A stretch of 64,000 nt of DNA from Holothuria scabra. Taxonomy: Eukaryota; Echinodermata; Holothuroidea; Aspidochirotida; Holothuriidae. Of this stretch, positions 1,744 through 52,849 are shown piece after piece. The notes under the pieces were generated by a model that saw nothing but the letters and a program-made list of their open reading frames with translations, was not told the origin of the DNA and made no database searches. The position numbers were made by a program, and so were the translations under genes. The stretch is from NCBI GenBank assembly GCA_037179385.1, contig CM074187.1:4030001-4094000 (forward strand), read 5' to 3'. Every line of letters starts with the position of its first letter. Position 1 is the stretch's first letter.

Positions 1744-2519
1744 TTACCGTTCTTCTTTGATAAAGGAATTTAAGGCCACATTTTCAATTTCCAAGGACAC
1801 TGATTGGTCTAAACTTGAATAATTACACACTTTGGTATGATCATTAAATGTTTGAATATTTTTAAATCCTTTACCACAGTTCACACAGTTGATCGAATCC
1901 TTGTCTAAGCGTTCATGCATTTGACCATGCTGCCTTAAAGTAGACCGTTCTCTAAATGCTTTTCCACAGAGTTGACAAGTATAAGGTTTTTCATTGCTAT
2001 GTAGCAAACTGTGTCTTTTTAAAGACGAAGCGTCTTGCAGCACTTTACCACACACATCACATTGTCCATTATATACTGCCCTCTCTTGTCCCTTCAAATG
2101 ACGCCGTTCATGTCTCTTCAGCTGGCCCTTGTCTGTGAAACGTTTCTCACAAGTATTACAAGGATAAGGTTTCTCCCCCGTGTGAATCCGTATGTGACGA
2201 ACCAACTGTGAATTCTCAGAAAACCCTTTCCCACAGTATTCACATTGGAAAGGAGTGTTTCGATCATGAGTCTTTTCATGTCTCCTGCAGCTTCCAAGAT
2301 CCCCAAATGCCTTGCAGCACACTTTACATTCAAATGGTTTCTCTCCTGTGTGTACACGATGATGAGCCTGCAGAGATGAGAGAACTTTAAATCCTTTACC
2401 ACACCAGGAACATTTGTGAGGTCTATCCTCTGAATGGGACTGTTGGTGTCGACTTAGGTTAGTCTTACTTTGAAATGTCTTGCCACAAGTTTTACAGGTA
2501 AAGAGCTCACTTTCTGTAT
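1744..2519 (-). CDS. Last exon: zinc-finger array (7 C2H2 + 1 C2HC)
   Basis: The exon opens after the acceptor TTTTCTCCATTAG and completes a codon whose first base comes from the exon before. It gives 258 codons including TAA. Seven fingers follow the pattern CX2C-X12-HX3H: FTCKTC, HKCSWC, FECKVC, FQCEYC, YPCNTC, GQCDVC and YTCQLC. An eighth, INCVNC, ends HTKVC and so is C2HC. Linkers after fingers 2 and 4 are the classic TGEKP(F/Y); others vary (SEDRPH, SNEKPY). The linker between fingers 5 and 6 is long and basic. The tail is acidic (EIENV...KEER). TGEKP linkers are typical of DNA-binding arrays. An ATG-initiated reading can be extended upstream to 2619, but that part is intron. The stop overlaps a donor-like GTAAGG, so an alternative 3' end is possible. 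Confidence 0.9.
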
Positions 2520-5500
2520 CTAATGGAGAAAATAAAGAAGAAGTTAGTATCAGACAGAGAGATAATACATCCAAATCCCATGACCCAAACATTTCCAAAA
2601 ATGTAAGTAGCAGCATCAAGTTTCACTTCTAAAATTATTAAATGTCAATCCTAATTGTTAAGTATTTTTGGGAATCCATCAACCAGTCTAATAGAGGTTT
2701 CACACTGACATCACTGTCTTGGATCTCTCTCCATTTTTACAGTCAGATATTCATTTTGCAATTCAAATCTGCAGGCCAAATTAAAACTTGCCGACTTCAT
2801 GTGGAAAACCTCTACTACACCTTGACATACAATCACATGATGGCAGTTAGAGAGGCTGTTAAAATAATAATTTATGTGTATAGACTATTTCACACCATCA
2901 CACCAATTTCTAATCATGTTTTAATTACATGTGTTTTTGGATGCAGCAAGAATTTTACATTTCTTTACACATAACTTCATTTCTAATAAGTGAATAATAC
3001 TCCACGTTAACGTTTCTACTTCTCTTTGGAGAAGATACATGCATTTCCAAAGCCATATAAGTGTGATAAGTTGCCTCCTTATGAATCATGCTATATGACA
3101 TAACAAGACTTACATTTTAATCCTTCAAACTAAATGTAAAAATCAACTGCAAAAAAGTGAAAAAGATTGTCTTTTTAATGTATTCTTCAATGGAAAAAAT
3201 GCTTTATACAGAATGATTTTTTTCCTTTAAGATAAAACAAAGGAGTTCCAGATTTTCTGATCATTGTAATTTTTTTAGACAAAATTTTAAAAGATCTGAA
3301 AATGTGACTGAATCTCCAATTTAGAGAGTAGATACACACAGGACATCCCAATAATGTGATCCTCTGTTGCTGCTATCAGGTGGGATGGTAGCTGCCAGCC
3401 TCATGCACATGTAGTGCATACCTTGCAAGACTGACAACACCTATTTATATGTGATAGTGTGTATCCATGCATGAAATGGGAACAGAACAGCTTCTATCAA
3501 ATATGAAATAAAATCCATTCATGAAGTCATCTCAAATGTTCTAAAATGGGATGTTTAACCAAAAATGTAATTTTAATATGTGTAAGAGAAACAAAATCTA
3601 CACAATTTGGTGGAACTTTCATTCAAATTCAACACCTTTTTTTTCATTGATATATCAGATATCGGTCAAGAATAGGTTATATTCCTTCCTCAATTGAAAG
3701 GGAATATTTTTTTTCTTTTCTTTTCATTCTGTTGTGTTAACTGTACATTTAACAGTTATACAACCCCACTTGAAAAATGTCCTGTTGAGGTTAGGTTAAA
3801 TAGAGTTTTATGGCCAAGTTTCCAACCAATTGGTTCAAGTTGAGCTGGCCACTCCATGTCTGAGAAGATCACATACCTCTCATGGAATCCCATTCTGATA
3901 ACATGGAATTATTAAGGACAAAGTTAGCTGCAGAGTTTAAAGAAACACAAAACACTTGCCCATTGTAAATGTTAGACATTGTAATCATCTGTGCTTGCTG
4001 AAAATTTAAATTGTGTTGAAAATGTGACAACTTTAATTGCAGATACTTTTAAATCTACAAACTGGATTTCAATGAAAATTTCACCAGAGTACTTGGAGAA
4101 ATAGGTGCAGCTCTGGAGCTATATAGCAGATCAATGCTTGATTTGAACTAAGGACTTTCTTTTAAGCACCATGTGTACAAGGCCTTCCAGTAGAGGCTCC
4201 CTTTAACAAAAGCAATTGCCCAATGCCACTTTTTAAGTGGCATATCAAGATATCTATTTGTAAAGACCACAAGACACCTGAAGAAAGTAACTCATGCACA
4301 ACTTTTCCTTTTTTTGTTAATTTCTGAAATTCAGAGTAATATCCAAATAACTTCGAAAAATTGTCACTAATAAAACAGCAAAATACAGAGCGGTGGAGGA
4401 CTCCTATAGTACCTGAAAAACAGTACCATTATTCCCTTTTTTTAACCTTAATTTCTGAACCAACTTTTTCTTTAACCTAATTTAAAAGAAGGGTTTTAGG
4501 TCACATCAAGTTTTGATATATTAGTGGGGTATTTATGCTAACAACTTACAACTTCAGTGAAATTTGCATTGAAATCCTATGTGTGGCTATCCAGATATGA
4601 GCACATAAAGTTTGTTACATTCTCAATAAAAAGTGAACTTGAAGCAAGCTCAAATGACATCATATCCCCACATTAATGGAAAGTTTTTTGTTTTTCTTCA
4701 AAATTTACAGCCAACTTTATCCTCAACAATCCAATATCATCAGAATGTGATTGCATAAATGGCAAAATAATTTTACAAACTTTGCATTTCACACAGTGAG
4801 GTTGTATTTCTATTAACTTCAAAGTTAATACAATGGTCTGAAAATACAAAGAGAAAAAAAGCATTCCTTGTCAATGTGAGGAAGTGATATAACCTCTGCT
4901 GCCCTCAAGCTCACTTTTGAACACAAATTTACTAACTATATTTACTGGTACCTTGAGAAATACATACGCAATTCAGATGGGAGTTTCATCACACTTTATA
5001 GATTTGGTTTCTTTTTCACATATGAAAATAAAATTTTTGCTTAAACTTCTCCTTTAATATGTTATTTTAAGTACCTTTCTTGTTTTCTTTGGATACTTTT
5101 CTCCTTGGCATTATTTTCTTCCCAGTGGTTTTAGAAGCAGGACTTGATCTTTTTAACACGTGTGTAGGTGCCAGCTGGGTTCCTGTAATTGAAATAACAC
5201 TCAAGCTCAAAGAAATTTGAAACATTCGGGTAAGAGTGAACCTGGCTATTTGATGTAACCATAATGCAGAACATTCAACTTGTGAATTCAGAATGCAAAA
5301 ATAATAAAAAGATATCATACAGAAAAGGATGATTCTACACACACACAAAAAAACTTTCTTCAGCTTTTCAGAACTCAAGGACTAAGTGCATTATTTGGTC
5401 CATGTTTGAGACTGTGAGCATATGAATTTCATAAAGGGCAGTGCTCCTTTTTCACATAATTTAAGTTCCTGTGGTTGCCGAGCATGTACATGCCCCAACA

Positions 5501-8500
5501 GGTCCACCCCCAAATTAAATTTCAAACAAGAATGAAAGAATAAAAAAAGGAGAGTTTTATGCCCGTCAAAACCTTGAGAACTGAGGATCCTAAACTAGTT
5601 TTCAAGGGTGCCATATAATAGGTTGCACGTGTTTTCAACTGTGTGATGAATATATTTTAATAATGTGCTATCAAAAATCATTCTCAAACTATCAGAATTT
5701 TCACCAATCATTGGTACCCAACCTAACTATGCTCTTATTATGTTCCTTGCTTCAATCATTAGCACTACATTGCAGGAGAAGCACCAGCAGCAAAGATTAA
5801 AAGTTGTTCTATGAGTACCAGATTATAGAATCACCTGACTGACAGGTGGGTTTTGTTGAATATTTCTGTCTTGATGCTGAGTGTAATCGTCACCGATAAG
5901 TTTCTCAGTCGACCTCTGTTACTCACTTGGCCGGGTTCCAAGTATGTACGCATGTCAGGAATGCACACAGGTGTTTCTCTTTGAGTCGCGTGGACTCGCG
6001 TGTCAATGCTGTTCACTTCTGTTCTCCTTCTCGTTGTGTTTACCCGCATCCTCTAGCACCGCCCGTTTATTTTTTGAGTAAGTTTATTAGCCTTATCTTT
6101 TATTAATTACAGTAAGTTAATTAGACTAAGTTTTTGGAAGAAATGTCTGTCCTCGTATGTTACTATATTGATTTACCAAGTTGCTGTATGATAATCGTTC
6201 AGGCCGGTTTTTAATCTTCTGCTTCAAGGGGTCGTTAAAAATATTTTACTCCTCCTGACTGCAGCTGTTTTGTGAGTGCCCGATTAAAATGTCTTGCATG
6301 TAATGAACTTTGTAGAGTATTTGTTCAAGGGTTACTCAGAATCCATTAATTTTCCGTAACAGGTTTACCCCAGTCAACGCCATTATCCCTGTCACCGCTG
6401 TTATCCCAGTCACCCCAGTCAACCCAGTTACCCGAAGTCGCCTCATTGTGTGTGACACTATATCCCTGTAACGATTTTGTAAGTCATAGCAGAATTAGCA
6501 TTTTTTGGAGGAGTTGTATGTTTGCGTGTGTATGTGTGTGTGTGCCTGGGTGTGTGTACTCGGCTGGAAATGTTAACCAAGTTACCTCTGTCGTGTTTCG
6601 TTTCTGTCTGTATCTGTTTGCCTGTTTTATGTCTAAAATTTGCGTTGTTAAGCGTACCTGTACATATGTTTCATGCGACGTATTATTGTTCTTTTCTAAT
6701 CAATTTTGTGTTGTTTTCTTCTAGTTTCACCCTGCCTCAACGGCATGAGTGCAAATAAAGGGGTGAAACCCGGAACACGTCTCCCGTGTAATCATTTCGT
6801 GCCACACACAGTGACACTGAGTCTAAATGCAAATTTTGTATTCAAAGGAATTGCCAATGTAAAATTCCAGCATATATTTTTGCACTTAAGACCATAACCG
6901 TTACTGAAGAAAAACAGTTCACAATTTTACACAAATAAAATCGTGTTTTTACACGTTTTGGAATTGGAATCTAAGCCAATTAATATTAAAAAATTTGTCC
7001 ACCCCCCCCCCACCCTTCATTCCCCAGGTTTGCACCTGAACATAGTAACACATGAAAGTTCCCCCACTAGTGTAAACAAAAGGCATAAGGTACACAAATT
7101 TATGCAGGTTTTAGGTGTAGTACCCCATAACACCAACTTCTGTAGGTTGCTCTTGTACCTTCACCATGGTACAATATCTCTGCCCCACCCCAGTTTTTTT
7201 TTGTATGATCTCGTAAACAATGAAAACCTTAACATTTGGTTTGGATTGTTAGAATTCTATGACACAACTTCTGAGAGTGCAAACTTACCTTCATTATCCA
7301 GTAATTCCTGTGTATCATTGCCTGTTTCAACTGGATCAATTGACATTTCTTCAGATTTATCTCTGGTGTCATTCTGTACTAATAAAGAGTTATTTTGTTC
7401 TGCTGGTTGCATCCTTTCCATGCATTTAACATTAAGACCTTCTTGCTGATTATCATCAGAATCAGGTGGTTCTTGTTTGATAGTAATTTCTGCAGGTAAG
7501 ACATCTTTTTTTTATACAAGGAAAAGAAAGACATTTATGTTGGAATGAAATCTCTCCCTGAATTTTGGGCTAAATTGTAAATGAAGAAATCTGAAATCAT
7601 GTCAGTGTAGTAAGGACAAGTCATTCCCCTTTGAAAGCAAAACTGTATCATTTCCTAAAGATACAGTCATACATCTTCTCTCTCAGTTGTTGCAGACAAT
7701 ATCTCTACTTACTTAGCTATGTTGTCTTTAGACCAAACATACTGACTGATTACAATAGCCATAACAAATGCATATTCTCTGATTTGGGTTTCTTGTGTTC
7801 CTGCAAGCAACTCTGTGACTTACTCTCAACCTTTTAAGTGAAGAACAGAAAAATGAATAATTTGTCAGCTCTTAGCATGCCAATATTTGCACAAAATAAT
7901 CAAAGTAGCACATACATATTAATACATTTATTATTATATTTTAAAAGGTGTAGTTATGCTCAATAACTACCAAGTTCACTAAAAACTATCAAGCACCTTA
8001 TAGTTATTAAAGATGGTATTAAAGTAAAGCCATCTTGGATTATTATTACCCTAATACTAACCAATTAATCACAATGCATGCAAACCCAAAGATATGCATG
8101 TATCAGGCTCCCCTCTATCCCAAAAATGGCAACACTCAAAGTTAAAAGCACAAAACAACCCAATGCCAGTGCTGGAATCTATGAAGGGGCCACCCGTTTC
8201 AAGTTATGGGGTTTTGTTCAAAAAAGTGGTATGAGGTAGATTTTCAGTAAACAGCAACATAGAAAGAAAACTCTTTCACAATTTTTATCCCCAATAGATG
8301 TGAGAAATTCCCTCACATGCTTTTAAACTTTGAGGGGTTGTTGAGAAGGGAGTGTGAGAATCATGTGATTTCCCTCCATAATACAAATATTACTAGAAAA
8401 GATAGAGTTGTGTGATATGCTCTGAAATCATACCATACCTGGATTGAAGACTGCCCTCCAGCAGTCCTCATCCTCCTCACTATCTTTCTCAGAATCACTG

Positions 8501-11500
8501 TCATTATTTCCACCAGCAAGGTGACTTGATATGCAATCTGAAAATATAATGTGTCTTACTTAGGGAGATATTGGAAAATTATGAACATGATGAGGAATCT
8601 TTCTGATGAGGTTAAAGGGTACCACACTAAAAGTCTAAAAATTCAAAAATATACATCACTGAGCTTCAAAAATGAATTCAATCGGTTCAACTTACAAGAT
8701 CTTTCCAAGACATTCCTGAGGTGAGTCACAAAATGTTGGTGCTTATCCAATCAATTTAAAATAAATGGTAGATTTAAGGAATCAACTGCATTTGGCTAAC
8801 TATTTTTGGTGAATAAACTGTCAAGACTCCAAATTTGGCAAAATAACAGATGAAACCATCAAGACTTCAAATTTGGCAAGATAATGGACAAGGTGAAGTC
8901 ATATTTTGCCAAACTGGAATCGTGACGGTTTATTCACCAACAATAGTTTATGTAGCTTATTCCTATTCTACAACCCAAAATTGCTGAAAATCTTGAAGAA
9001 ACAGGAAAAAAGCCAGTTTTTCTTTTAAAAGACAATGCTTCAAGGGCAATTTTTAAATTTTAGCCAATGAGAGTCAGGATTTGTGATGATTTCTAGTATC
9101 ATCATTTCTTCAATTTTTATTTTTCCAGGGATCAACAAAATGACCAACTTTAATGAGATTGTTCACATTGTTACATGTATATATAGAGTACAGATATAAA
9201 TTGCATAACAAAACTGTGACTGTACATATTTGGCAAAAAAGCAAAAGGTGCAAAACCATGTTTTTGAAACTCTCCAAATATTTTAGTGAAATGAATAATT
9301 CAAACAACACTTCTTGCAACACATTTTGAGAGTGGAAAAAACTTGAAATTCTGAATAACAAGATTTTATTTGTTCAAAACTTTAAATTGATCTATTTTTG
9401 TGAAAGGCTGAGGGACCTAAATTGGCATGGTGCAAAACACACTTGCTGCAAACATGTTAACAAACTGAACTTATAACTGTTCATCGCAGAGACAACAGTT
9501 CACAAACAGTATCTGTCTTTTGGCTGCTGAGCATGAACACTAACAGACTAAACTTTTTACAAGTATGTATATTAATAATGGTTCTTGATAACTTGTTGAT
9601 AATAACATCAACAGGAGCCCAAAAGCCGCAATTGAGGAATATTGAAGAAAGAGATATGCTTTGTCTCTATTCATCGAAAAACATTGTCAGATCTGTTTTA
9701 CAAACAGTAAGGTTAGTACACTAACATTACTATTACTAACTTTGGTGAAGCTCTCTGTTTCCCTACGTTGTATGACACCATTATTGTTTTCCATGTTTGT
9801 TAACACTAGGCTGTTGGCAGTGGAAGCGTTTTTGTTGACCGTCGTATCAGCACTGACATTAACAGGAACAAGTTACAGTAGGTAGGCCTACGCATAGTAA
9901 CACCAGTCAAACTTTCTGACAGCTTAGGCTTTTGACCAATGCTCTAATGATTTATGTAAGACCATACACATCACTTATAGGGTTGTGATACTTTGTTTTG
10001 TCTAAGCCTTCCCATTTCATTTGTTTTATTAGTTCAACTAATAACTTGTTTGACCAACGGAATGCTGGATCTAAAATTATGTTGTAGCGATGGAAGGGAA
10101 CACTTGTGAGGTGCCTGTTTATTGCTAACCTCATGCCAGCCATAGCTGACTATTCATACTAATGTCAATTCTTTGTTCTGACTTCCTTAGAAAACTGTCA
10201 CAAGAGGTCATCTAATTGGTCTGTTGGAAGCTCTTCAAATGACTCAGATATTCTCTCTCCTTTAGTCAATCTGTGAGGATACTATAGGCCCAGCTTAAAA
10301 TCCCAGTCTTAATATTGAAATCTTTTCCTGAAACTAACAGTATCATTTTCTCATGAGCCTTCTTGAAGTTCTTGACTATAAATTTAACAGTAGACCTAGC
10401 TGGACTATTTTGTTACTCAAATTTCTTTAAATTTTGAAATTTTGAAATTACTTTTGTTGCAGAAATTATGCTTCTTTTATTCTGCACATTAAAATATATA
10501 TCCTTAACCACAGTGACTGCAATACTTTTATACTGAAGATTATTTTATTCTTTACTGAAAACAAGTGTTTGCTTTTCATTAATTCTGTTGGTCAGTGAAC
10601 ATCTGTATCTGTCCCAACCTCAAATTTGCATGGCAAAATAACAAACTCAGCTCCCTGCATCGTTTATTTTGCGAATATTTGTCAATAGTTTTAGCGATAG
10701 AGGGCCAAATTATATTATACTTTCCTTAACTGTAGTGTTACTTAAAAATGTCTAGGCCTAGGCCTGTACATAGCTTGTTGACTGACCTTTGAAAATTTGA
10801 ACTCCCCACTTTGTTGCTCTTTTAGTGGATGCCTTCAGTCTGTTTCCTTCAATTCCTTCTACATCAGTTTTGGACAGTTGCACAATTCTTTTATTTTTGC
10901 TCCCTTATCTAGGTCAGAAGGCTCAAATTTTAAGAGGAAGCAGGGAAGTGGAACATCCATATTAGCTTGAGGCATGCAGTTTTGTGTTTACACTAGAACA
11001 TGCATAATTTAGCACTGGGTATTTGCCTTGGTAAGTTTTGACCAGTCTGTGCTAGTCATGTTGCTATGCAACAGGAGACAGTCACAATGCCCTTCAGACA
11101 TTCTGTGTTGCCAATGATTTTTGCATACTTATGAGGTACTATCCGTTATTTTAAACCAGAAAGCCAAAAGGCTTAGTGATTCCTTGCCGCTGTAAGGCCT
11201 TTTTTCACATTGACATTGCTTTGCAATGTTTTTCAATTAACAGGGCTCCATAATGTGCCCACAAAGTACACATGCAAGGCATCCAATCTTCTTACATTGA
11301 GATCCCCCTTGCCCGTTGTGAACCCAAATGACATTTGACCTCCACCAAAAACTTCTGGGACCATGTATTCACTATGTGCCATCTACAGGACAAGTTACAG
11401 GACCCTACAAGTGACCTTTCTTGAAAGACTGTGCAGGAGAGCTTGTCAGGCTTTGAACATGCTGACTCCAAATGAACTTTGACCTTTCAGAAAATCAATA

Positions 11501-14500
11501 GGGATCATCTACTCAATATGACCAATCCACACACTAAATATGAGCACAGTCACATGTACCGTTCTTGAGATATCGTGTTTACGTAGTTTTAACCTTTTGA
11601 CCTCTCATGACCCCAAATGACCTTTGACCTCCACCAAAAACAATAGGGATCATCTACTCAATATGGCCAAAACACTCGCCAAATATGAGCACAGTCACAT
11701 GTACCGTTCCTGAGATACCATGTTTACGAAGTTTTGACCTTTTGACCTCTCATGACCCCAAACGACCTTTGATCTCCACCAAAAACATTAGGGATCATCT
11801 ACTCAATATGGCCAATGCACACACCGAATATGAGATTAGTCACACTTACTCTTCTTGAGATACCATGTTTACCAGCAATTTCTAAGGAATTTACCTATTG
11901 ACCTCTCGTGACCCCAAATGACCTTTGACCTCCACGAAAATCAATAGGGATCGTCTACTCAATATGACCAACCCACACACCAAATATGAGTATAGTCACA
12001 TGTACCATTCTCGAGATATCATGTTTACGAAGTTTTGACCTTTTGACCTCTCCTGACCCCAAATGACCTTTGACGTCCACGAAAATCAATAGAGATCATC
12101 TACTCAATATGAACAACCAACACACCAAATATGAGCATAGTCACATGTACCGTTCCTGAGATACCGTGTTTACAAAGTTTTGTCCTTTTGACCTATTGTG
12201 ACCCCAAACGACCTTTGATCTCTACTAAAAACATTAGGGATCATCTACTCAATATGGCCAATGCACACACCAAATATGAGATTAGTCACACTTACCCTTC
12301 TTGAGATGCCGTGTTTACAAGCAATTTCTAAGGAATTTACCTATTGACCTCTCGTGACCCCAAATGACTTTTGACCTCCACGAAAATCAATAGGGATCAT
12401 CTACTCAATATGACCAACCCACACATTAAATATGAGCATAGTCACATGTACCGTTCTCGAGATATCGTGTTTACGAAGTTTTGACCTTTTGACCTCTCAT
12501 GACCCCAAATGACCTTTGATCTCCACCAAAAACAATTGGGATCATCTACTCAATATGGCCAATGCACACACCGAATATGAGATTAGTCACACTTACCCTT
12601 CTTGAGATACCGTGTTTACAAGCAATTTCTAAGGAATTTACCTATTGACCTCTTGTGACCCCAAATGACCTTTGACCTCCAAGAAAATCGATAGGAATCA
12701 TCTACCCAATATGGGCAATCCACATGCCAAGTATGAGATCCCTCGGAGTTACCCTTCTTGAGATATCGTGTTTACAAGCCGAAGCGTCACATACGCACAC
12801 ACACACACACGACATCACCATCGCATAGATTCCTTGCCTGCCTACGGCAAGGAATCAAAAATAGGATGGTCATGTGGACTGTGTGAGCTAATCAGAATCC
12901 AGGAAATGAAATAATGGTCAGTAAGGGGTTATAGAGTGTACAACAATTTGTGACGTTGCGACAGTAATACTCAAATTAACAGCTTTATTTCTTTTACAAG
13001 GCTATAGCACTTTGCCCAAAATGTGGTTGCAGTCAGGTCCAAACACAACAGACTACTTCATATTAGATCAATGTTTCATGTTGGATGTGACAATGGGAGT
13101 TGGAGGGAAAAGGCTCATTTTCCAAACTCTAAAATATAGTCTCTTGTGCTTTTAGGCTTAACAATAATGTAAAACAACACCAAAACTTTGCTTACTTTGG
13201 CTGAGATGTGCATCTTCTGTTAAGGCATTCCTTCTGTATCTGTCATTTATAGTTTCTCCAGTCAAATGGATAACACCTGTTAAAATGAACTGGAAGTAGT
13301 TACAAAAAGATACTAAATAATTTTGGAAAGCTGGCCGAAGAAAATGAAGAGTATTTCCAATAAACAAATTATCTGCACGGAAGAAGTGTTTCAAACTTTG
13401 CAATTTTAAAATTAAATTTAAAAATATATATCATCCTTAATAGGCTCAAAAATTTAAAAATTTTTTTGTTCTCTTTATGCATGACACTATTATCTGTTTG
13501 TCCCCACATTGCACTTTCAAAATATATTATTGGTCATCCCAATACAGGAAAAGAGAGCCCTTACTGCATTCTAAGAAATTAGGTAAAATTATATTTTCAT
13601 TGCAGTTTACAAAATTTCACAGCAAAATAATCCAAGAAAGTAAGATCAACTTTTACGACTTTCACAGGCCAAACTCTAGAAGTCTGACAAACTTAACTAA
13701 TTATCTCCCTCCCTTGCTGAGCATGATCACCTGAGCAATGTGTGCTTCATCAAAATCTCTTTCATTAAAGGGACATTCCCTAGTTTTATAAATATTTCAT
13801 AGAAACATGGGTACTAACTCAACTGTTGAGCAACTTAAAAGGAAAATGCAGTTACTCCAACTTAAAAGTAAAGAGCAGTCACCCAAACTTATTTTGAAGA
13901 AAAACTAAATAACACAATTTTCATCTTATTTCTCTTCAAAGTTCCTTCCTTAACATTTTATTAATTTACTATTGCATATTCAAGGTAAACCAAGCAGTTA
14001 TTTCTGGTAAATTTCACATTTGAAGAGAAAAAAACATTGTCACATGACTCCCAACAGCCAATCATGAAACTGGACAGTCTACTACACTTCTTCAATTTGG
14101 GATGACTGCTCCTGCCCTTTAAATTAGTGAAGTAGACTGTCCTGTTTCATGATTGGCTCTTAAGAATCAAAAGCAAATTTTTCTTCTCCTCAATAGTGAA
14201 ATTTACTGGGAGTAACTGTTTGGGTTACCTTGATAATGTTATATTGAAACCTTAAAATTTTATGAAAGTACTTTGAAGAGAAATATGAAAAAAATTCTGG
14301 GGCTTAGCTGTCCCTTTAAAGTAGGTTTGGGATGACTGCTCTTGCCCTCCAAAATCAGTCTAGAGCACTGCGAATTTTAGTCCATTTCAAGTAATTATAA
14401 CTATTTATCTACCTCTACAAAAAAAGGGATTACCTTTGCCTTCACAGGAAAGGGTCAATGTCTCTCTGGCTTTGATATGCATATCCAAATTTTGTTGGAG

Positions 14501-16638
14501 TATGAACCCATGCTTCAAGGTGCATACAACAAAACTTCCCTTCTCTGTGTGAACAATCACTTGGGTATTTCCAGAAAGCCCCTTTTCTGTAGAGAAGAAG
14601 AGTGTGAAACGGAAACCCTGCTTCATTCAATTGCATGGGATTAGCAAAGTAAAATATGAGAGAGATTTAAGAGCAGGGGTGGGGGGATATCTCTGTCTAC
14701 ACTTCACTATTTAGCTAATTTGTTGGTTGAGCAGCACACCAGGAGCTGGGATCACTGTAATAATTAAATAAGAGGAAACTTGGAGTTAGCAGAAAACTGC
14801 CAGCTTATTGACAACATTGACAATTTGTTCCAAAGAGGAGTAATAGTGCATAGTCGCAATAGGGAGAAAACAAACTTGTCTCTGTCAAAGGTTCTTACTT
14901 TAGTCTGAAAGTAAAATAACTGAGTAGAGTAGCCAGCAATCTATTCAATTAAACCAACTGAAACATTAAAATGAAGTGTAATTCTATGTCCTTAAGCACC
15001 ACACTTTGAAAAAAGTAGTCTTCTGTACAGCCTTTATTAAGTAAATCAAATTTAGCAAAAATTAAAGTAAGATTTCCCAACATAAATGTGGACCTTCCAG
15101 CCTTTTTTAAATGTTAATCCTTAAATCCCTGTTTCAGTAATCAATTTGATAGGCTGTAGATCTGGTAACAAACCAAAGCAAAAGAGCTTGTTTTCCTAGC
15201 CAGTGCACAGTTAGACATACAGCTGTATACAGTCCCCCAAAATAAGATCAGGGGTTTCTGTCAAGGGAACTAAAGGTGAGGATGTGTTCCCCTCCCCCTT
15301 CCAGAGTGGTAAAATTCCCCTTTTTTCGGTACAAATTTGAAAAAATGCCAGTATCTTGGTTTCCTATCTAAAAAGAGGACACCTTTGTTATCAAACATGA
15401 CAATGAACGGCACTGTATCTAATGCCTATTTTAAAAATATGGTGAATGTGACATGTCTGTTGGTGCCTGCCATACCATTACTCTAACAACCCTGTGGATA
15501 TCCTTCTTCAATGGAAACAACACTGAAATGTGCACAAAAGATTGAAGATCTATTACACCGATTAGCTACTAGATCTGTTTTTCCTTTTATGACTTGGGTA
15601 AGGAGGTGGGTACACATTAACATATACAGAATAAAACCAGTTGACCATCACAGTTCAACATTGCAACAAAGCAACCTTTTGTTTAGTTTAAACCAAGTTC
15701 TTGAAAAAATTTTAACTGTGTGACAGGTATTCAACAGTAAGCCCAGCTCTAGCAGAAGACAGTTGGAATGGCAGTGGACATGGTAAATATGACATTTCTA
15801 TTGGTGTCTGCCATACCATTGCTCCAACCCTGTGGATATCCTTCTTCATAGAAACAACACTGAAAAGTGTTGGCTGCCTGTCAATCAGAGGATTACTTAC
15901 AAAATATTAACCCTCACCTTCAAAATTCTTCATCATATGTCTATCTTATGGAATTGATTACTCCATATATCCCCACTAGGCTACTGCAGTCTGGTCCTCA
16001 AAATATCTTGAAAACTCCTTCCTCTACAGCCAGTACTTGTGGCCAAAGGGCCTTTCCAACCTGTGGGCCTTATCACTGGAACCATATTCCTAATCATATT
16101 AGGCTTTCTTCTACTCTTAGCACATTTAAAACCTGTCTTAAGGGTCACTTGTTTAAACTGGCATTTTCTTTGTAAATTGTTTGTTTTGTTTTCTTCTTTG
16201 TAAAGAGCATTGAGATGTTTTTTAACATTTATGTGCTAATGCACTACATAAATGCTTACTGTAATTACTATTATTATTTTTATTATTACTCTATGAGAGA
16301 AGGCCTTATAATAAATTCCAGGCAGAGGAGTTCAAGTAAACGTGCACATGAATACATTTGAGATTCTCACTTACCATAACCTTCCCTTGTTTCTAAGGCA
16401 GCCATTGAAACATGGATGTCAGCATCAGCTGTTTGTGTGAAGGTTTTCCCTGGGTTTAATTTTACACCTTGATTGTAAAAGGAATATGGAATAAAAAACA
16501 ATAAGTGTGGCTAGTGAATGACTTTTGAGGTAACAGTGAACTTGAGTTGTCCTCTGTAAATACTTTTTAATCAACAATTACCCACCCAGATATACCTCCA
16601 GGTCTTCCAATAGTTCCTTACCCCCAAAATTTGTACAT
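1744..16638 (-). CDS. Split gene: nucleoplasmin-like (NPL) domain plus C2H2 zinc-finger protein
   Basis: Whole-gene entry; the exons are listed separately. Order on the minus strand: candidate start exon 16622-16638, then 16375-16467, 14434-14586, 13196-13276, 8439-8537, 7289-7489, 5075-5182 and 1744-2519. Every exon from the second on has an AG before it, and every one but the last has a GT after it. All these introns are phase 1, so the six internal exons join in one open frame of about 500 residues. Seen: an NPL-like beta-barrel segment, an acidic stretch, an IKQEPPD motif, basic clusters and eight zinc fingers. Family knowledge: NPL domains of FKBP39/46 and nucleoplasmins form oligomeric histone chaperones; C2H2 arrays bind DNA. 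Inference: a nuclear DNA-binding chromatin factor. I know no named orthologue. The main weakness is the start exon, whose end is one base out of phase. Confidence 0.72.
2650..4480. other. Intron sequence, no feature recognised
   Basis: Lies between the last and penultimate exons of the zinc-finger gene. AT-rich; scattered poly-T and poly-A runs, no coding pattern. Confidence 0.4.
4483..5056. mobile_element. Fold-back MITE, family F1, copy 1
   Basis: About 570 bp that recurs at 16,672-17,244 with the same order of landmarks: TAAAAGAAGGGTTT at the left end, a GAACTTGAAGCAAGC block, a TGACATCATATCCC block, then the inverted counterparts (GAGGAAGTGATAT...) and a right end near AACTTCTCCTTTA. The two halves are partly complementary, so it is a fold-back element without coding capacity. 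It lies in an intron, next to the 5.1-kb exon. Confidence 0.6.
5075..5182 (-). CDS. Internal exon: basic, NLS-like segment of the NPL-zinc-finger gene
   Basis: Exon of 108 nt (36 codons), phase 1 at both ends, between acceptor TTTCAATTACAG and donor G|GTACTT. It encodes a Lys/Arg/Ser-rich stretch including VLKRSSPASKTTGKK and MPRRKVSKENKK, which look like nuclear-localisation signals and an unstructured linker. It reads directly into the first zinc finger (joining codon GAT, Asp). No domain is recognised. The fold-back MITE at 4483-5056 lies about 20 bp beyond the donor. Confidence 0.65.
5183..7288. other. Intron with short tandem repeats and a G+C-richer patch
   Basis: Contains a CpG-containing patch near 5920-6060 and a short degenerate tandem repeat near 6365-6440 built from CCCAGTCAACC/CCAGTCACC-like units. 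A (TG)n stretch lies at 6525-6560 and a C-run near 7001-7012. Near 6724 a good acceptor (TTTTCTTCTAG) on the plus strand precedes an AATAAA, which might mark a small terminal exon of an unknown transcript. No protein family is recognised. Confidence 0.35.
7289..7489 (-). CDS. Internal exon with IKQEPPD SUMO-type motif
   Basis: Exon of 201 nt (67 codons), phase 1 at both ends, between acceptor TCTTACCTGCAG and donor G|GTAAGT. It starts ITIKQEPPDSDDNQQEG and goes on as an acidic, Asn/Gln/Asp-rich, probably disordered segment ending TQELLDNE. IKQE fits the psi-K-x-E SUMO acceptor consensus, and IKQEPPD-like motifs are common in linkers of animal C2H2 regulators. Inference: a site for SUMO modification or co-repressor contact. 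Confidence 0.7.
8439..8537 (-). CDS. Internal exon: short acidic segment
   Basis: Exon of 99 nt (33 codons), phase 1 at both ends, between acceptor TTATATTTTCAG and donor G|GTATGG. It encodes a Ser/Asp/Glu run (NNDSDSEKDSEEDEDCW) followed by RAVFNP. Acidic tracts directly after the core are a hallmark of nucleoplasmin-family proteins and of FKBP39/46, so its position just behind the NPL exons supports the model. Confidence 0.7.
8808..8945. repeat. Short inverted repeat (about 40-bp arms)
   Basis: The left arm, around TGGTGAATAAACTGTCAAG and CCAAATTTGGCAAAATA, is mirrored by TATTTTGCCAAACTGG and GACGGTTTATTCACCAAC, with imperfect pairing. The phrase CCATCAAGACTTC/AGACTCCAAATTTGGCAA is also directly repeated inside. 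Possibly a small fold-back element in the intron. Confidence 0.5.
8950..11150. other. Intron sequence, no feature recognised
   Basis: Part of the 8.5-13.2-kb intron of the zinc-finger gene. No exon with both good borders and an open frame was seen; open frames at 9533-9885 carry no recognisable motif. Confidence 0.35.
11154..12860. mobile_element. Tandem-repeat element, copy A (GATTCCTTGCC ends)
   Basis: Left end AACCAGAAAGCC, then the palindrome AGCCAAAAGGCT and GATTCCTTGCC. The middle is an array of nine or so monomers spaced 145 or 156 bp (measured at GGGATCATCTACTC). The right part has (CA)n, then GACATCACCATCGCATAG and a perfect 11-bp-stem hairpin (GATTCCTTGCC / GGCAAGGAATC). The same ends occur in copies at 21.1, 56.3 and 60.9 kb, so this is a transposed unit and not a simple satellite. 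No coding capacity. Palindromic ends, internal minisatellite and microsatellite recall non-autonomous Helentron/DINE-1-like elements; that class is a guess. It sits inside an intron of the zinc-finger gene. Confidence 0.8.
11618..11630 (-). promoter_or_regulatory. DR1 nuclear-receptor-like site in array A (example)
   Basis: Exact AGGTCAAAGGTCA read on the minus strand. Further exact copies in this array lie at 11919-11931 and 12666-12678; other monomers carry one-base variants. DR1 (AGGTCA-N-AGGTCA) is the established binding site of RXR, HNF4 and COUP-TF-type receptors. Whether any receptor binds here is unknown. Confidence 0.55.
13196..13276 (-). CDS. Internal exon: last strand of NPL domain
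   Basis: Exon of 81 nt (27 codons), phase 1 at both ends, between acceptor CATTTTAACAG and donor A|GTAAGC. It starts GVIHLTGE, matching the final beta strand of NPL domains (consensus G-x-V-H-L-T-G-Y in FKBP39/46-type proteins). It goes on as TINDRYRRNALTEDAHLSQ, which is not recognised. Joining to the previous exon gives CEGKGVIHLTG, with the glycine codon split by the intron. Confidence 0.72.
13766..14318. mobile_element. Fold-back MITE, family F2, copy 1
   Basis: Long imperfect palindrome centred near 14,105. AAAGGGACA at the left is mirrored by TGTCCCTTTA at the right. Inside, GGTAAATTTCACATTTGAAG and CCAATCATGAAACTGGACAG reappear in reverse complement as TAGTGAAATTTAC and CTGTCCTGTTTCATGATTGG. 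Arms are roughly 250 bp. The same family hosts the BEL element (25.3/31.9 kb) and occurs again at 37.3 kb. Confidence 0.7.
14434..14586 (-). CDS. Internal exon: central part of NPL domain
   Basis: Exon of 153 nt (51 codons), phase 1 at both ends, between acceptor CTTCTTCTCTACAG and donor G|GTAATC. The reading includes NTQVIVHTEKGSFVVCTLKH, then ILQQNLDMHIKA and LTLSCEGK. This follows the NPL pattern of a hydrophobic strand, a K-x-(F/Y)-x-(V/L)-CTL turn, a Q-x-x-LD strand and a K-G turn seen in FKBP39/46-type proteins. Identified by pattern memory, not by a profile search. Confidence 0.75.
15845..16295 (+). mobile_element. 5'-truncated LINE 3' end (CR1/L2-like)
   Basis: The translation shows the C-terminal signature of LINE reverse transcriptases: CWLPVNQRITYKILTLTFKI, then in the continuing frame GQRAFPTCGPYHWNHIPNHI and LSTFKTCLKGHLFKLAF. 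This is followed by AGAGCATTGAGATG...ACTACATAAATGC and a (TTATTA)n tail, as is usual for L2/CR1-type 3' ends. About 90 bp just upstream (15,775-15,865) is a diverged duplicate of 15,450-15,540. Only the 3' tip of the element is present. Confidence 0.65.
16375..16467 (-). CDS. Internal exon: first strands of NPL domain
   Basis: Exon of 93 nt (31 codons), phase 1 at both ends, between a weak acceptor (TTTTACAATCAAG) and donor G|GTAAGT. It encodes VKLNPGKTFTQTADADIHVS then MAALETREGY. NPL domains begin with an FWG-x-x-(L/M)-x-P-x-(K/R)-x-Y-(T/S)-Q-T motif and a later H-(I/L)-S-x-(A/V)-AL motif; both are visible here. It splices in frame to the 14.4-kb exon. Confidence 0.72.
16622..16638 (-). CDS. 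Candidate start exon, MYKFWG-like, one base out of phase
   Basis: On the minus strand ATG TAC AAA TTT TGG is followed by G-rich sequence and a donor GTAAGG. NPL proteins begin M..FWG, and the next exon continues with VKLNPGK, so the match in sense and place is striking. The intron would be only about 154 bp. The run before the donor holds five Gs; four would restore phase 1. Either a base was added in the read, or this start is not used. Only about 33 bp separate this ATG from the outer end of the MITE at 16672-17244. Confidence 0.45.
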
Positions 16639-17244: not shown

Positions 17245-18995
17245 ACTAATTCATGAAACAAATTGATCAACAAACAGCAGCTATCCAAGAATCAAACTTT
17301 CAAAATAATGATCACTTTAAGGTAATTAAATCAAGGTAATTACTATTCACATATTTGTAATTTCTAAATTCCTATCACAGTGCTATACTACAACATAAAT
17401 ATTTTTCTGATAAACTTAACAGGACATTGAATGTTACAATCTAAGTAATGAAGATATAATATGACCAAGACAATTTTTTCCATCAAAGATTACTTCATTC
17501 ATTTTTCCCCTTGCAGCTTCACAAACAAAATTTTATAGGTTTGGTGAAAACTGAGAACATAACATTGTGACATAGTGGTGCAGTAGTTTGGTGCCGTAGA
17601 CCTGTGTGGTCAAAGTGGAATATTTTTAGCAATACTAATTAATACACCCATCGATCTGTATTTTGGGCAGCACTTCCAAAATGGACTATTTGTCACTACC
17701 ATAGCCTTATTATACAGTAGGTTTGCATCAGAATCATTACTATGGTACTTATACTCCACACTGGCCTCCCTATCAAGAATTTGCAGTAAATCTCAAATAT
17801 ATTGTAAGATCATGCCTGTCTCAATTTTCAGAAAATAGCTTTGATGTTGAAACATGTTTTGCACATTTTCACACAAGTGCAAAACCATGTGTTTCACAAG
17901 TACCTACAGTAGTGAGCTGTTCTTTATTATTTGTGCAATTGTTTGTCCATTCGTTCATAGCTTTGTTTTAATAATTCATATTTACAGTATTTTTTGGCAG
18001 GAATTCAACAGGGTTTGTGGGTCCATGAATCATTTACTGTTTATTATTTAATGTCTGAGACACAATAATTTCATTACAGCAACACTGAACTCCTATCAAG
18101 ATTAAAGAAATTTGACAGAGTTGATCCATAAGTTGGATAAAAAAACAAACTTGTATTTTAGTAAGATTCTCACAAAGAAAAGAAAAATTGTCCATCAGAC
18201 AACTAGCTTTTATTTATTTGGTTGCCTGTATGGTATTATTAATGTTGCCCTGAACAACCAAACACCTCATAAATAGAGCTCTGTCATGTTCACTAAGGCA
18301 GGGGTAGAAACATTCAAGAAAGCTTAAGCACTGTACACATACCCCACAACATTTTAAGCTTGACTTCTCCACTGAATGAGGATGTTAAAATGGAAAACCT
18401 GTTCTCTCTTTCTTAAATATTGTTGGAGCCTGAAAAAAAAAAAAAAAACATTCACACACATAAGATTTTATAACTGGCACAGTGACAGTATTAGTGCTGA
18501 CTGAAAAAGTCAAACACAGACAAAACTTTCCATCAAGGACCTGTAAAACAAACCAAGCAAGGCTACAAGGCTATAGCTGCAGGTTGGAGGAAAATATTTG
18601 CCCCTGGACATAAAAGATAAACATGGCCATTGCCTTTAAATTACTGCATTTAGTATACCTTAAGTACTTCATAAATATTTTTGCCCCCTACAGGATATTT
18701 TCCCCCTTCAGGATATTTTCCCCCTTCAGTACTATACCTGGCTATTGGCCTGTAAACCTAAACCTTCAAACATTCCACAAATACATAACAAAGTTTACAT
18801 AATATCTATAGCAGGGGTAGAGTGCTAATGTTATTTTGGGACGAGGGTGTAATAAGATATACTGTAGTCTTCTAATATATCATTGCGGTTGTACAAGATG
18901 ATTAATAATGATGGAGATGGACTTGTACAAATCTGATCCAGTTTACTGAGGATGAAACAGGAAAGACTACTTAAGCAGTGAAGGAAAAGGGTGAA
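17245..18995. other. Intergenic, no gene recognised
   Basis: AT-rich. Notable only for a poly-A run near 18,432 and a short tandem repeat at about 18,685-18,735 made of roughly 20-bp units (CAGGATATTTTCCCCCTT, about 2.5 copies). No coding exon supported. Confidence 0.4.
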
Positions 18996-21144: not shown

Positions 21145-22788
21145 AACCAGAAAGCCAAAAGGCTTAGTGATTCCTTGCCACTGAAATGTAAAGCCTTTTT
21201 TCACATTGACATTGCTTGGCAATGTTTTTCAATTAACAGGGCTCCATAATGTGCCCACAAAGTACCCATGCAAGGCATCCAATCTTCTTACATTGAGATC
21301 CCCCTTGCCCGTTGTGAACCCAAATGACATTTGACCTCCACCAAAAACTTCTGGGACCATGTATTCACTATGTGCCATCTACAGGACAAGTTACAGGACC
21401 CTACAAGTGACATTTCTTGAAAGACTGTGCAGGAAAGCTTGTCAGGCTTTGAACATGCTGACTCCAAATGAACTTTGACCTTTCAGAAAATCAATAGGGA
21501 TCATCTACTCAATATGACCAATCCACACACTAAATATGAGCACAGTCACATGTACCGTTCTTGAGATATCGTGTTTACGAAATTTTGACCTTTTGACCTC
21601 TCATGACCACAAATGACCTTTGACCTCCACTTAAAACAATAGGGATCATCTACTCAATATGGCCAACACACTCGCCAAATATGAGTATAGTCACATGTAC
21701 CGTGTTCGAGATATCGTGTTTACGAAATTTTGACCTTTTGACCTCTCGTGACCCCAAATGACCTTTGATCTCCACCAAAAACAGTAGGGATCATCTACTC
21801 AATATGGCCAAGGCACACACCGAATATGAGATTAGTCACACTTACTCTTCTTGAGATACGGTGTTTAAAAGCAATTTTTAAGGAATTCACCTATTGACCT
21901 CTCGTGACCCCAAATGACCTTTGACCTCCACAAAAATCAATAGGGATTATCTACTCAATATGACCAATCCACACACCAAATATGAGCATAGTCACATGTA
22001 CCGTGTTCGAGATATCGTGTTTACGAAGTTTTGACCTTTTGACCTCTCGTGACCCCAAATGACCTTTGATCTCCACCAAAAACAATAGGGATCAACTACT
22101 CATTATGGCCAATGCACACACCAAATATGAGATTAGTCACACTTACCCTTCTTGAGATACCGTGTTTACAAGCAATTTCTAAGGAATTTACCTATTGACC
22201 TCTCGTGACCCCAAATGACCTTTGACCTCCACAAAAATCAATAGGGATCATCTACTCAATATGACCAATCCACACACCAAATATGAGCATAGTCACATGT
22301 ACCGTTCTCGAGATATCGTGTTTACGAAGTTTTGACCTTTTGACCTCTCGTGACCCCAAATGACCTTTGATCTACACCAAAAACAATAGGGATCATGTAC
22401 TCAATATGGCCAATGCACACACCAAATATGAGATTAGTCACACTTACCCTTCTTGAGATACCGTGTTTACAAGCAATTTCTAAGGAATTTATCTATTGAC
22501 CTCTCGTGACCCCAAATGACCTTTGACCTCCAAGAAAATCGATAGGGATCATCTACTCAATATGACCAATCCACACACCAAATATGAGCATAGTCACATG
22601 TACCGTTCTCGAGATATCGTGTTTACAAGATTTTGACCTTTTGACCTCTCGTGACCCCAAGTGACCTTTGACGTCCACCAAAAACAATAGGGATCATCTA
22701 CTCAATATGGGCAATCCACATGCCAAGTATGAGATCCCTCGGACTTACCCTTCTTGAGATATCGTGTTTACAAGCCAAAGCGTCACAT

Positions 22789-26150: not shown

Positions 26151-28073
26151 ATGGAAGAGGCTAAAAAGAAAAGAAGTGTACAAAAAGGGAGCCATGACCA
26201 GAATTATCAGGACTTTGCAAACTGCCATCCAAGAAGGAGCTTCTGTTGAGTACGTGAACATACTCCATAATGACTTATTAGAGGGATGGAAAAAGGTCCA
26301 AAATGCACATGAAGCAGTTCTTATGCTAGGTGACCCTGAGGATGAAGAACAAGAACAATGGATCACTGAATTGGAAGATAGATATAACAAGTCTCACGCC
26401 ATGAGGTAATAAAGTATAGGGCCAAAGACGTTCCTGAGGAGGGTGACAAACCCAGCAAGGGGCCAAAGGTCGGCCTACCCCACATAGGACTGCAGCTAAA
26501 GAAAATGGACTTGCCTAAATTTGAAGGTAACTTGAGAGAATATGCACGATTTAAGGAAGACTTCACCAAATTTGTCATTCCGGTCACCAACGCTGATCAG
26601 GTAACCTTTGCCTTGAGACAAGCATTAGGCCCAGAACCCAGAAAAGTTATTGGGCCCATTGAAGATGATATCAGTAAAATGTGGGAAAGGCTGGATGAGA
26701 AGTATGATGACAAAATTAAATTAGTAGATGTAATAGTGAATGACATCGAAAGGAAACGTGAGGTCAAAGATGGGGAAAGTAGAAAGTTGGTGGCATTCAT
26801 AGATGATGTCGAAACAACAAGTTACAACGACTTAAAAAGGGCTGGACTTGAGAAGGAGATGTCCAACTCCAGAGTAGTGGGAGAAATTGAACGCAAGTTG
26901 CCACCTTCAGTATTTGGCAGATGGGTAAGACATATGCACGAGGATAAGAATAATATTGATAAGACTGACAGGCTTCCAGATCTGTTAAAGTTCCTTGTTA
27001 AGGAGAGAAGAAGTTCGGAATACTCGATGGAGGGTATAAGAAGTAGCCACACCTCAAAGGCTGTGTTGCATGCGGTTGAAGTTGAATTGCCTAAGATAGT
27101 GACAAGCTGTGTGATTCACAAGAGATCGCAACATAGCACTGAGCTTTGTCGTACATACTTGGCAAAAACTGCAGAGGAAAGGATGAAGGTAATTAGAGAG
27201 AATAAAGCTTGCTTCTGTTGTCTGGGCACTGGCCACACAGTGGCCAGGTGCAATAGAAAAAGGCAGTGTGGTGTAGAGGGATGTACTAGACTTCACCACA
27301 ACAGTCTTCACCGCAAGGAGGAATCTGATGGTACAATGGAGAGAGGAGACACCTCGGGTGGGAAAGGTAACACACCTTTAGTCTTCTCTGTTCAGAATGG
27401 AATGCAGACAAGTACTGACCCATGCTTGCTGCAATTGATGGAGGTTAAGAGTAGGCATGGATGTCTTGTAACTTTATGGGACAGTTGTGCAACTGCATCA
27501 CTTATTACCTTTGCTGCAGCTGGCAAAATTAATGCCAAGGGTTCTCCAGTCAGAGTTCAAATGACTAAAGTAGGGGGCACGACAGAAATTATTGACAGCC
27601 TCAAATACAGGGTCCCGCTTATCGACAAGAAGGGGAATACATGCAATATAGAGGCCTATGGGATCGATTGCATTACTGCAAAGGTGGCAAACAAAGATTT
27701 AACTCACTTGGCAAAATTGTTTAAAGGAGTCTCTGCAGAAGAAGTTAGCAGGCCAAGTGGAGAAGTGGAATTGTTGGTGGGATATGAGTATGCAGGGTAC
27801 CACCCAGTGAAGTCACAGGCGTGTGGCCACCTTGTCCTACTAGAAAACCAGTTCGGCCGATGTATTAGTGGGTCTCATCCCTCACTGGAGCGGGAACAAG
27901 CCGTGGGGATCCACATCCATCATATCAAAACTACGAAGTTTGATGAATTTCTTTCCATCGAAAGCATGGGTATCAGTTGTGTACCAAGGTGTGGTGGCTG
28001 CAAATGTGGCAAAATGTCCAGTGGGATCAAGGAATCTTACACTGCAGGAAGAGAGGGAGCTACACCTTATTGA
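26151..28073 (+). CDS. gag: BEL/Pao gag-protease region
   Basis: Capsid/nucleocapsid precursor followed by the aspartic protease. The likely start is the ATG at 26,151, which shares its frame with the main open stretch from 26,505. Between about 26,186 and 26,405 the reading lies in another frame, so two compensating indels are needed, the first at an A5 run. Zinc knuckles are visible: CFCCLGTGHTVARC (CX2CX4HX4C, about nt 27,210) and a second Cys/His group, CGVEGC...HH..LH, as is usual for BEL gag. The protease motif is WDSCATASLI near nt 27,478, with DSC for the common DSG/DTG. Conserved FGRCISG and CVPRCGGCKCGK segments lead into pol. Confidence 0.8.
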
Positions 28074-33669: not shown

Positions 33670-35900
33670 GGGTTGAGAAGTTGTTGAAAAACCTAAAGGT
33701 TAGCAAAGCCATGGGACTTGACAACATACACCCATGTGTTCTCAGAGAGCTTGCAAATTAACCGATCAAGCACCAATGATCAGTCATCTTTTCCAGCAGT
33801 CAATAACCAGTGGTTACATTCCCAGGGACTGGAAAACTGCAAATGTTTGTCCGATTTTTAAGAAAAATGATAGCTTTCCCCCATCCAACTATATCGCCCT
33901 GTCTCTCTGACTTGTATTTGCTGTAAGTTGTTGGAGCATTTCATGATCTGCTCAATCACTATGAAGTAAAAAAATCCTTTCCACCAAGCAGCATGCTTTA
34001 AGAAAAAATCACAGTTGTGATACTCAGTTGGTGTCTGTTATTATTAATGATTGGGATCCGGCCTTGGATAAAAACAAACAGGTCGACGTCTTTATTTTAG
34101 ATTTCGTGAAGGCCTTCGACACTGCCCCCCCCCCCCCCCCCAACGAACTCCTCAAGACAAAGTTATATTCTTTATGGGTCTCTAGACAAATCGTTAATTG
34201 GGTGGAGAACTTCCTTTCTGATCACTCACAATCTGTTGTTGTAAATGGTACAAAATCTGCTCCTACTCCAGTTCTTTCTGGTTTTCCTCACGGGTCTGTT
34301 CTAGGTCCAGTTTTCTTTCTGTCTCATATAAACGATATTGTTGAAACTGCTTCTTCTGAAGTTAGGTTGTTTGCTGATGATTGTGTTTGTTATAGAGTCA
34401 CTGAAGATCAAAACGACTGCAGCGTTCTACAGAGAGACATTACTCATGCACCTGGGCCAATGAGACAAAACCTGGGGCATGAGATTTCATCCGGCATAGT
34501 CGCGGTGCAATGTTATGTCTGTTATTAGGAAACATAATCCAAGAATTTTCATGTATACTCTCCATGGTGCTAATCTGAAGAGGGTGGACTCTTCATATCG
34601 AAAAGTTTTGTACAAAAACGATCATTTGCTCATTTTACACCAAAATTTTTAAATTTTCCTAACTAAGGTAAACTTAATCAGTTATGCTTCGAAATGATAT
34701 ATCTCGGTGAAAGCAACCACTGAAACGTCAATTTTCATTCAAAATACATGATTTTTGACTATTTCCAAATTTTGTGAGGTCATAATTTGGGGGAATCTCC
34801 CCAAAATAAAGCGTCATTTCGTGTCACACAAACACGATTTACGACAACTAGATCCAAATAAAACCAACTCCTTTTCTCCTGCCACCTATGACATGTATCT
34901 ACCAGAAACGCGTTTAGCCATTTCGATATTTTTGGGGCTAGAATTATTCATCCTTTTAAATTATGTAAATTTGGGGTGACCAGCACACACCCAGTGTATA
35001 CTTTTTTGATTGGGCACACCCTTTAATTTTGTCGTATATCATTAATTTATGGGAATTTATGTCCAAATAGACATCAGTTCACATAAATTCATGATATACG
35101 ACAAATCTGAAGGGCATGCCCAATCCAAGAAGTATTCACTGGGTGTGTAGTAGTACGAACATCGGAATTCCAAATTGGCCAGCTCTTTAAAACACAACCC
35201 CGATGGCGAGTACTACATTGATTAAGCGAAAAACCGAAAAATACAACATGCTCCTACACACTGTAACGCATTTGTGAGATTTATGATCGAAACTTTTCGA
35301 TATTTTAAGTATTTGGGGGTGAGAAGAAAGAATCTCAGTTGGAGTAAGCACATACAGTCTGCTTGTAATAAAGGAAATACGGTTCTCGGTCTACTAGGCA
35401 GGAACCTTTCTTTTTGTTCCTAGGAAGTTAAAATTGCCAGCCTATAAAGGTTTGGTAAGGCCTTCATTAGAGTAAGCTTTTTTTGTTTGGGTTGCAAATC
35501 AGGTTTCATTTCAAGATAAACTAGAGGGAGTACAAAGAAGATCTGCTCGGTTTATAGCCAATGAGTACTACTCCCGTGATGTTGGATCAATGACAATCTT
35601 TTGAAAGATCTCGGTCTTGGCATGCTTTCTGATCGCCGCATGCGTTGTAGGCTTCAAATCCTCGCAAAAGGTATCAACGGTCAAGCTAATATACCTTTCT
35701 CTGACCTTTGAAAACCCACCCGTATTACTCGTAATATGCATGCTTTGCACTTCCGTCCCCCCCCCCCCCCCTGCTAGGACAAATTGCTTTAAATACAGTT
35801 TTACCCCAACACTATTCGGGATTGGAATGATCTTCCCATCAGTCTCATCGAGGGGGTAGTTAGCCACCCTTAGCCGCGTAGAATTCATAACCAATTCTTA
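33670..35900 (+). mobile_element. Decayed CR1/jockey-like LINE, split by a TIR element
   Basis: RT blocks are easy to read but broken by shifts and stops. About 33,675-33,870: VEKLLKNLKVSKAMG..NIHPCVLREL and DWKTANVCPIF-like segments. 34,028-34,420: VDVFILDFVKAFDT, QSVVVNGTKSAPTPVLSG, GSVLGPVFFLSHINDIV and FADDCVCYR. After the insert, 35,304-35,880: YLGVRRKNLSWSKHIQSACN onward to the C terminus. The best relative in this window is the minus-strand LINE at 49.6-52.7 kb, which has the same FADDCVCYR motif. Poly-C runs interrupt it at about 33,550, 34,124 and 35,757. Confidence 0.8.
34598..35300. mobile_element. 703-bp TIR element inserted at TA in the LINE relic
   Basis: It begins TCGAAAAGTTT and ends AAACTTTTCGA, flanked by TA on both sides (34,596-34,597 and 35,301-35,302). 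Removing it rejoins the LINE reading VDSSYFKYLG-like. A central palindrome spans about 34,985-35,155 (ACACACCCAGTGTATACTT mirrored by AAGTATTCACTGGGTGTGT). The TA target and size suggest a Tc1/mariner-type MITE; an ATAT duplication is equally compatible. Confidence 0.75.
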
Positions 35901-52735: not shown

Positions 52736-52849
52736 GCCTAGGCTAGGCCAAACATTAGAGCCTAGGCAAAGTACTGTCAGTTGTAGTACTACTGCAGAGT
52801 GCAACGCCCCACTCAAAGTCAAACTTTGGGTCGTTCGCAAAACAATGTC

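Follow-up and report, generated by a model that had tools for sequence, protein, structure and literature searches.

A gene of the sea cucumber Holothuria scabra joins a nucleoplasmin-like (NPL) domain to an array of eight zinc fingers, and we are highly confident that it belongs to a large sea-cucumber family of this layout, here named NPL-ZNF. The gene lies in a 64,000-nucleotide stretch of chromosome C9 (C9:4030001-4094000; hereafter the window). Support for the NPL–zinc-finger fusion proposed in a preliminary description of this DNA comes from profile matches, from splice phase, from at least 18 other NPL loci in the same genome at which fingers follow on the same strand, and from annotated proteins and transcript-sized contigs of relatives. 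From the N terminus, the layout comprises the NPL domain, an acidic segment, a SUMO-type [VIL]KxE motif, a basic linker and then C2H2 fingers.

Structure of the window gene and its NPL domain

The window gene is encoded on the minus strand by eight coding exons spanning 18352-1744, with GT-AG splice sites throughout and all seven introns in phase 1. Exons 2 to 8 were joined at GT-AG sites at the coordinates below. The frame comprises 512 codons, counting the stop, the protein begins MLWG, and the gene looks intact. Its coding exons are:

18343..18352, minus strand: coding exon 1, ATG TTG TGG G (MLW and the first base of G), donor gtatgt; resembles the MIWG/MFWG exons of paralogues
16375..16467, minus strand: coding exon 2, start of NPL, GVKLNPGKTFTQTADADIHVSMAALETREGY; 21.3 bits alone, below the cut-off
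14434..14586, minus strand: coding exon 3, core of NPL, VVCTLKHGFILQQNLDMHI; 33.6 bits alone, above the cut-off
13196..13276, minus strand: coding exon 4, end of NPL (GVIHLTG) and start of the linker; within the joined-exon NPL match, motif also in paralogues
8439..8537, minus strand: coding exon 5, acidic, DSDSEKDSEEDEDCW; placed by GT-AG joining
7289..7504, minus strand: coding exon 6, with the SUMO-consensus-like IKQEPPD; placed by GT-AG joining and [VIL]KxE comparison with relatives
5075..5182, minus strand: coding exon 7, basic linker, KRSSPASKTTGKKIMPRRKVSKENKK; placed by GT-AG joining
1744..2519, minus strand: coding exon 8, eight zinc fingers (about 2496-1825), short tail and stop TAA (1746-1744)

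The exons carrying the motifs named in the preliminary description were thus all confirmed, with GT-AG boundaries and phase-1 introns, and the in-frame splicing of acidic, IKQEPPD and basic exons into eight fingers stands; the seven-exon model proposed there needs two corrections: it missed the first exon at 18352-18343, and, of the eight fingers, seven are C2H2 and the eighth is C2HC. The window gene shows one finger exon, and the 4 kb that follow it contain no other. A tiny first exon (ATG, Ile or Phe, Trp and G, with a GTAA donor) also lies 5' of exon 2 at 5 of the 10 paralogous loci, and a sixth match to this pattern, at L027, is not positioned as a first exon. The site at 18352-18343 is the sole match in the window, on both strands, to a widened form of the pattern; the widening, to Leu, was made only after this site was known, and when the 3 kb lying upstream of exon 2 were shuffled base by base, 19 of 20,000 shuffles contained the widened pattern. 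At the other end of the domain, a GVIHLTG-type motif is present at seven of the ten paralogous loci and adjoins a phase-1 acceptor-like site at six.

The NPL domain claimed from sequence motifs was recovered when the joined exons were compared with Pfam. Specifically, the joined protein without exon 1 matched Pfam NPL (PF17800) at 64.5 bits (cut-off 23.4; E = 1.5 × 10−17; profile positions 4-93 of 94) and C2H2 families strongly, with neither FKBP_C nor BTB matched at E 0.01. As a single sequence, the window NPL had no match in the PDB at E 1, and a protein search with it returned nothing at E 0.001 among 102 candidates; neither a transcript nor an orthologue of the window gene itself was seen. 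Finding matches took a profile and a consensus-like query instead of a single sequence. A profile built from nine NPL domains of the H. scabra genome, the window's first among them, matched five solved NPL structures at E values of 7.7 × 10−8 to 0.0012 (FKBP39 4ca9, at E = 7.7 × 10−8, FKBP43 7wim, HDT1 7vrr, FKBP53 6j2z and HDT2 7vmf) and a sixth at 0.011. With residues mapped via the profile alignment, HVSMAAL and LDM of the window align with FHISGVAL and LDL of FKBP39, and the pore His and Asp are both kept in the window gene. In the family tree, the window NPL forms a long branch of unsure placement.

The window also holds a BEL/Pao-like retroelement (26388-31062, plus strand), in which a DUF1759 frame overlaps a pol frame that includes Peptidase_A17, RVT_1 and integrase parts, and LINE-like pieces with endonuclease and reverse-transcriptase matches (49636-52882 and 55156-55911, minus strand; 33965-34528, plus strand). 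Related 145-base units form two tandem arrays of about 8.8 copies apiece, at 11463-12775 and 21459-22771, the former within the long intron between NPL exon 4 and acidic exon 5.

The NPL-ZNF family in H. scabra and other sea cucumbers

Searching the H. scabra genome (31 contigs, 1,192,178,128 bases) with PF17800 gave 30 matches at E 0.001, all above the cut-off, with 11 on C19 and 7 on C1; an NPL match was found in all nine family members scanned. Eighteen of the 30 NPL loci were read as sequence (the window; the ten strongest, for approximately 17 kb downstream; and seven more, over a 10 kb stretch approximately 7-17 kb downstream). C2H2 exons with at least two fingers occurred on the same strand at 12 of these 18 loci, window included; in the stretches read, opposite-strand finger arrays occurred at none of the 18 and fingers were absent from six (L009, L011, L018, L025, L028 and L033). 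Every paralogous finger exon examined is preceded by a phase-1 acceptor-like site, with sites of other phases also present at most.

Genome-wide placement was assessed from a zinc-finger search in which 150 of 1,704 candidates were scored. At least 13 of the 30 NPL loci, counting the window, had a scored hit downstream in the sense orientation within 25 kb; when positions were randomized on the same chromosomes, 2,000 trials averaged 0.08 such loci and never exceeded 2. Among the finger hits listed, none of the 30 loci had one upstream within 25 kb on either strand, and the downstream antisense hits at two loci belonged to a pair of convergent NPL genes on C1, being the fingers of those genes. 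Within 125 kb, sense hits were found downstream of at least 15 loci (at least 37 hits), and the finger hits listed fell downstream-antisense at three loci, upstream-antisense at three and upstream-sense at none. Joining the sequence reading and the hit list, fingers follow the NPL exons in sense at at least 19 of the 30 loci (12 from reading and 7 more from the list, one of which, at C19:8.37 Mb, has fingers only at 58 and 106 kb). Among the remaining loci, one, on C8, has an FKBP_C match 25 kb downstream, and 10 of the 30 have no assigned partner; two of these ten, on C23, group at a weakly supported fork with H. leucospilota P0034, a protein with three fingers by pattern.

The C8 locus, at 9.42 Mb, had been a candidate for an NPL fused to C17orf113-type fingers, which was dropped because the FKBP_C match (38.7 bits, one stop within the match) lies on the same strand; C8:9.42-9.45 Mb is most likely an NPL-FKBP gene with two C17orf113-type frames in between. 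Both frames match zf-C17orf113 (PF25431) and are located at L026 6928-7440 and 8005-8502 (about 9.44 Mb), after the NPL exon and ahead of the FKBP_C match. The genome has 13 FKBP_C matches in all, none of them on C9.

Beyond H. scabra, 31 of 272 candidates were retrieved when proteins were searched with a chimeric NPL query: Apostichopus japonicus contributed 21, H. leucospilota 5, and the other 5 are encoded on contigs labelled lgn, presumably Logan assemblies of public reads. Many of the 31 are isoforms of one gene, so that rows are not independent. At least two fingers (range 2-19) were recognized by finger pattern in 28 of the 31, the pattern finding none in P0022, P0027 and P0035, and precomputed Pfam annotations list both NPL and C2H2 for 26. 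The linker carries [VIL]KxE in the window protein and all 31 relatives (a short motif, counted without a shuffle control in rows that are not independent), and likewise an acidic stretch with 12-25 Asp/Glu per 40 residues.

NPL and fingers occur in single proteins of both A. japonicus and H. leucospilota. The five lgn proteins (442-515 residues), all among the 28 with NPL and at least two fingers, are encoded without interruption on contigs of 1488-2079 bases; because the homologous H. scabra genes span more than 12 kb with introns, these contigs are spliced transcripts or retrocopies, and we take them as transcripts. A single transcript across both parts, which the preliminary description had suggested looking for, is thereby available for the relatives, not for the window gene. 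In addition, the NPL peptides encoded by exons 2 and 3 of L016 (C19:8.74 Mb) have exact counterparts in H. leucospilota P0005, and that of exon 2 is also identical in A. japonicus P0007; selection on the NPL part is therefore favoured. A word-based search returned no NPL-ZNF protein outside sea cucumbers and, because it also returned no NPL-FKBP of other animals, we make no claim of absence there.

Chance joining of unrelated exons was rejected in view of the genome-wide NPL-finger placement and the relatives' single proteins. Wrong joining of a neighbouring NPL gene to a zinc-finger gene is extremely improbable: no transcript of the window gene was seen, and phase agreement by itself is weak evidence because phase-1 introns are common, but NPL and fingers share order and strand at those 19 or more loci, and both parts are found within one protein in two further species and on the short contigs.

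Several relatives carry database names that the NPL-ZNF layout explains as misnaming (FK506-binding, BTB, ZNF91). Among P0021, P0022, P0035, P0020 and P0028, three are filed as '46 kDa FK506-binding nuclear protein', yet no FKBP_C is listed for them, and others are named ZBTB24 or ZNF91 though their N terminus is NPL. A. japonicus P0027 (isoform X2) has its first 241 residues in common with P0026 and then a finger-less C terminus; the gene model P0035, which is related to that protein, likewise lacks fingers.

Alternative finger ends at other loci

At loci other than the window, predicted isoforms and exon order show one constant NPL part joined to several apparently alternative finger ends. 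In A. japonicus, eleven isoforms (P0009-P0019, all assigned to a contig of 21,652,200 bases and taken to be pipeline predictions) are identical over their first 430 residues and then carry nine different finger sets; similarly, P0023-P0025 have 249-250 residues in common before three different arrays, and the lgn-contig proteins P0031 and P0032 diverge after 293 common residues. In H. scabra, L016 carries a series of four finger exons, every one of which has its own stop and a phase-1 acceptor-like site; donor-like sites of score 6 or above are absent from three, and the only one in the fourth overlaps its stop. At least 14 further same-strand finger hits lie 23-121 kb downstream of L016, a run of about 100 kb (C19:8616881-8715089, minus strand) behind one set of NPL exons, with no other listed NPL match between. 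The two finger exons of L035 each end in a stop and each contain one internal phase-0 donor-like site.

Tentatively, sea cucumbers may have a combinatorial system of DNA recognition, in which one NPL constant region is spliced to any of a dozen or more finger terminal exons and the resulting isoforms co-assemble while holding histones. Since the presumed ring-forming domain would be common to every isoform from one locus, mixed pentamers are proposed; a single complex could then read several unlike DNA sites at once.

Proposed function and comparison with known systems

The NPL-ZNF proteins are probably multimeric DNA-binding regulators; we infer oligomerization, DNA binding and histone binding from sequence. 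The NPL domain would form a ring of like subunits, most likely five, each ring would present several finger arrays, and the acidic, histone-binding chaperone surface would be brought to chosen DNA sites. The proteins would regulate chromatin or transcription in the manner of BTB-zinc-finger proteins (for example, Lola), with NPL as the multimerizing part. The NPL domain of FKBP39 is described as a pentamer that associates with histones and has a conserved His and Asp in its pore (PMC4414354), and full-length FKBP39 is reported to behave as a tetramer (PMC5225439).

That tetramer would also suit a possible, if rather unlikely, reading in which NPL is a small self-association domain like ZAD, SCAN or BTB, forming dimers or tetramers with ring form and histone binding lost. 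In favour of it, the pore His varies within the family (L016, for instance, has Q and L020 has N); against it, the Asp of LDL/LDM is kept in all nine aligned NPL domains and the acidic linker stretch occurs in all 31 relatives. Doubtful, too, is a role by analogy with vertebrate KRAB-ZNF or insect ZAD-ZNF proteins, in which the family would be fast-turning silencers of transposable elements; its many copies, concentrated on C19 and C1, its common NPL part with differing finger sets and the [VIL]KxE motif in every relative would be in keeping with this. HTGEKP-type linkers, which are usual in DNA-binding fingers, occur in several arrays and argue against a further, improbable reading, in which the targets of the fingers are RNA or protein and the family works in the nucleolus like other NPL proteins. 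Such a location has its parallel in FKBP39, described as nucleolar and as binding processome parts (PMC4414354).

As multimeric DNA-binding regulators, NPL-ZNF proteins would couple a histone-chaperone fold to apparent sequence-specific recognition and would make it possible to test directly if DNA sites can be clustered by means of a five-fold ring. Lineage-specific C2H2 expansions with one common N-terminal domain are known from the KRAB-, SCAN- and ZAD-C2H2 families, and to our knowledge none of these N-terminal domains has the nucleoplasmin fold. The principle of a multimerizing domain joined to C2H2 arrays is already known; new here is NPL as the putative multimerizing part, a role in which we did not find it described in animals. 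The statement in the preliminary description that no NPL-zinc-finger family had been described overlooks the plant HD-tuins, which have an NPL domain and one C-terminal C2H2 finger (PMC4414354), and holds for animals to the extent that no NPL-C2H2 family is named in the titles and abstract starts listed by searches of the open PMC library. A preprint on the H. glaberrima genome reports 167 C2H2 genes, and its main text is without the word nucleoplasmin (PMC13228809).

Three layouts are on record for NPL proteins: the nucleoplasmins, the NPL-FKBPs and the HD-tuins of plants (PMC4414354). Beside these, an expanded animal family with multi-finger arrays would be a further one. The HD-tuins (HD2 type, HDT1 and HDT2) resemble the window gene in having an N-terminal NPL of the same fold, an acidic linker and a C-terminal C2H2 finger (PMC4414354; profile matches to 7vrr and 7vmf), but they are plant proteins with a single finger, whereas the window gene encodes eight (2-19 in its relatives) and belongs to an animal family of many genes with alternative ends. 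The NPL-FKBPs (Drosophila FKBP39, yeast Fpr4 and plant FKBP43/53) provide the closest solved NPL domains by profile and have an acidic tail, but end in FKBP_C where the window protein has fingers. Finally, Drosophila lola joins a common BTB part to at least 20 alternative, mostly zinc-finger, C termini (PMC5127561); the window gene itself shows one finger exon in the stretch read, but its relatives, with a constant N-terminal part and alternative finger ends, would represent a second case of a lola-like exon system, built on NPL rather than on a BTB dimer domain.
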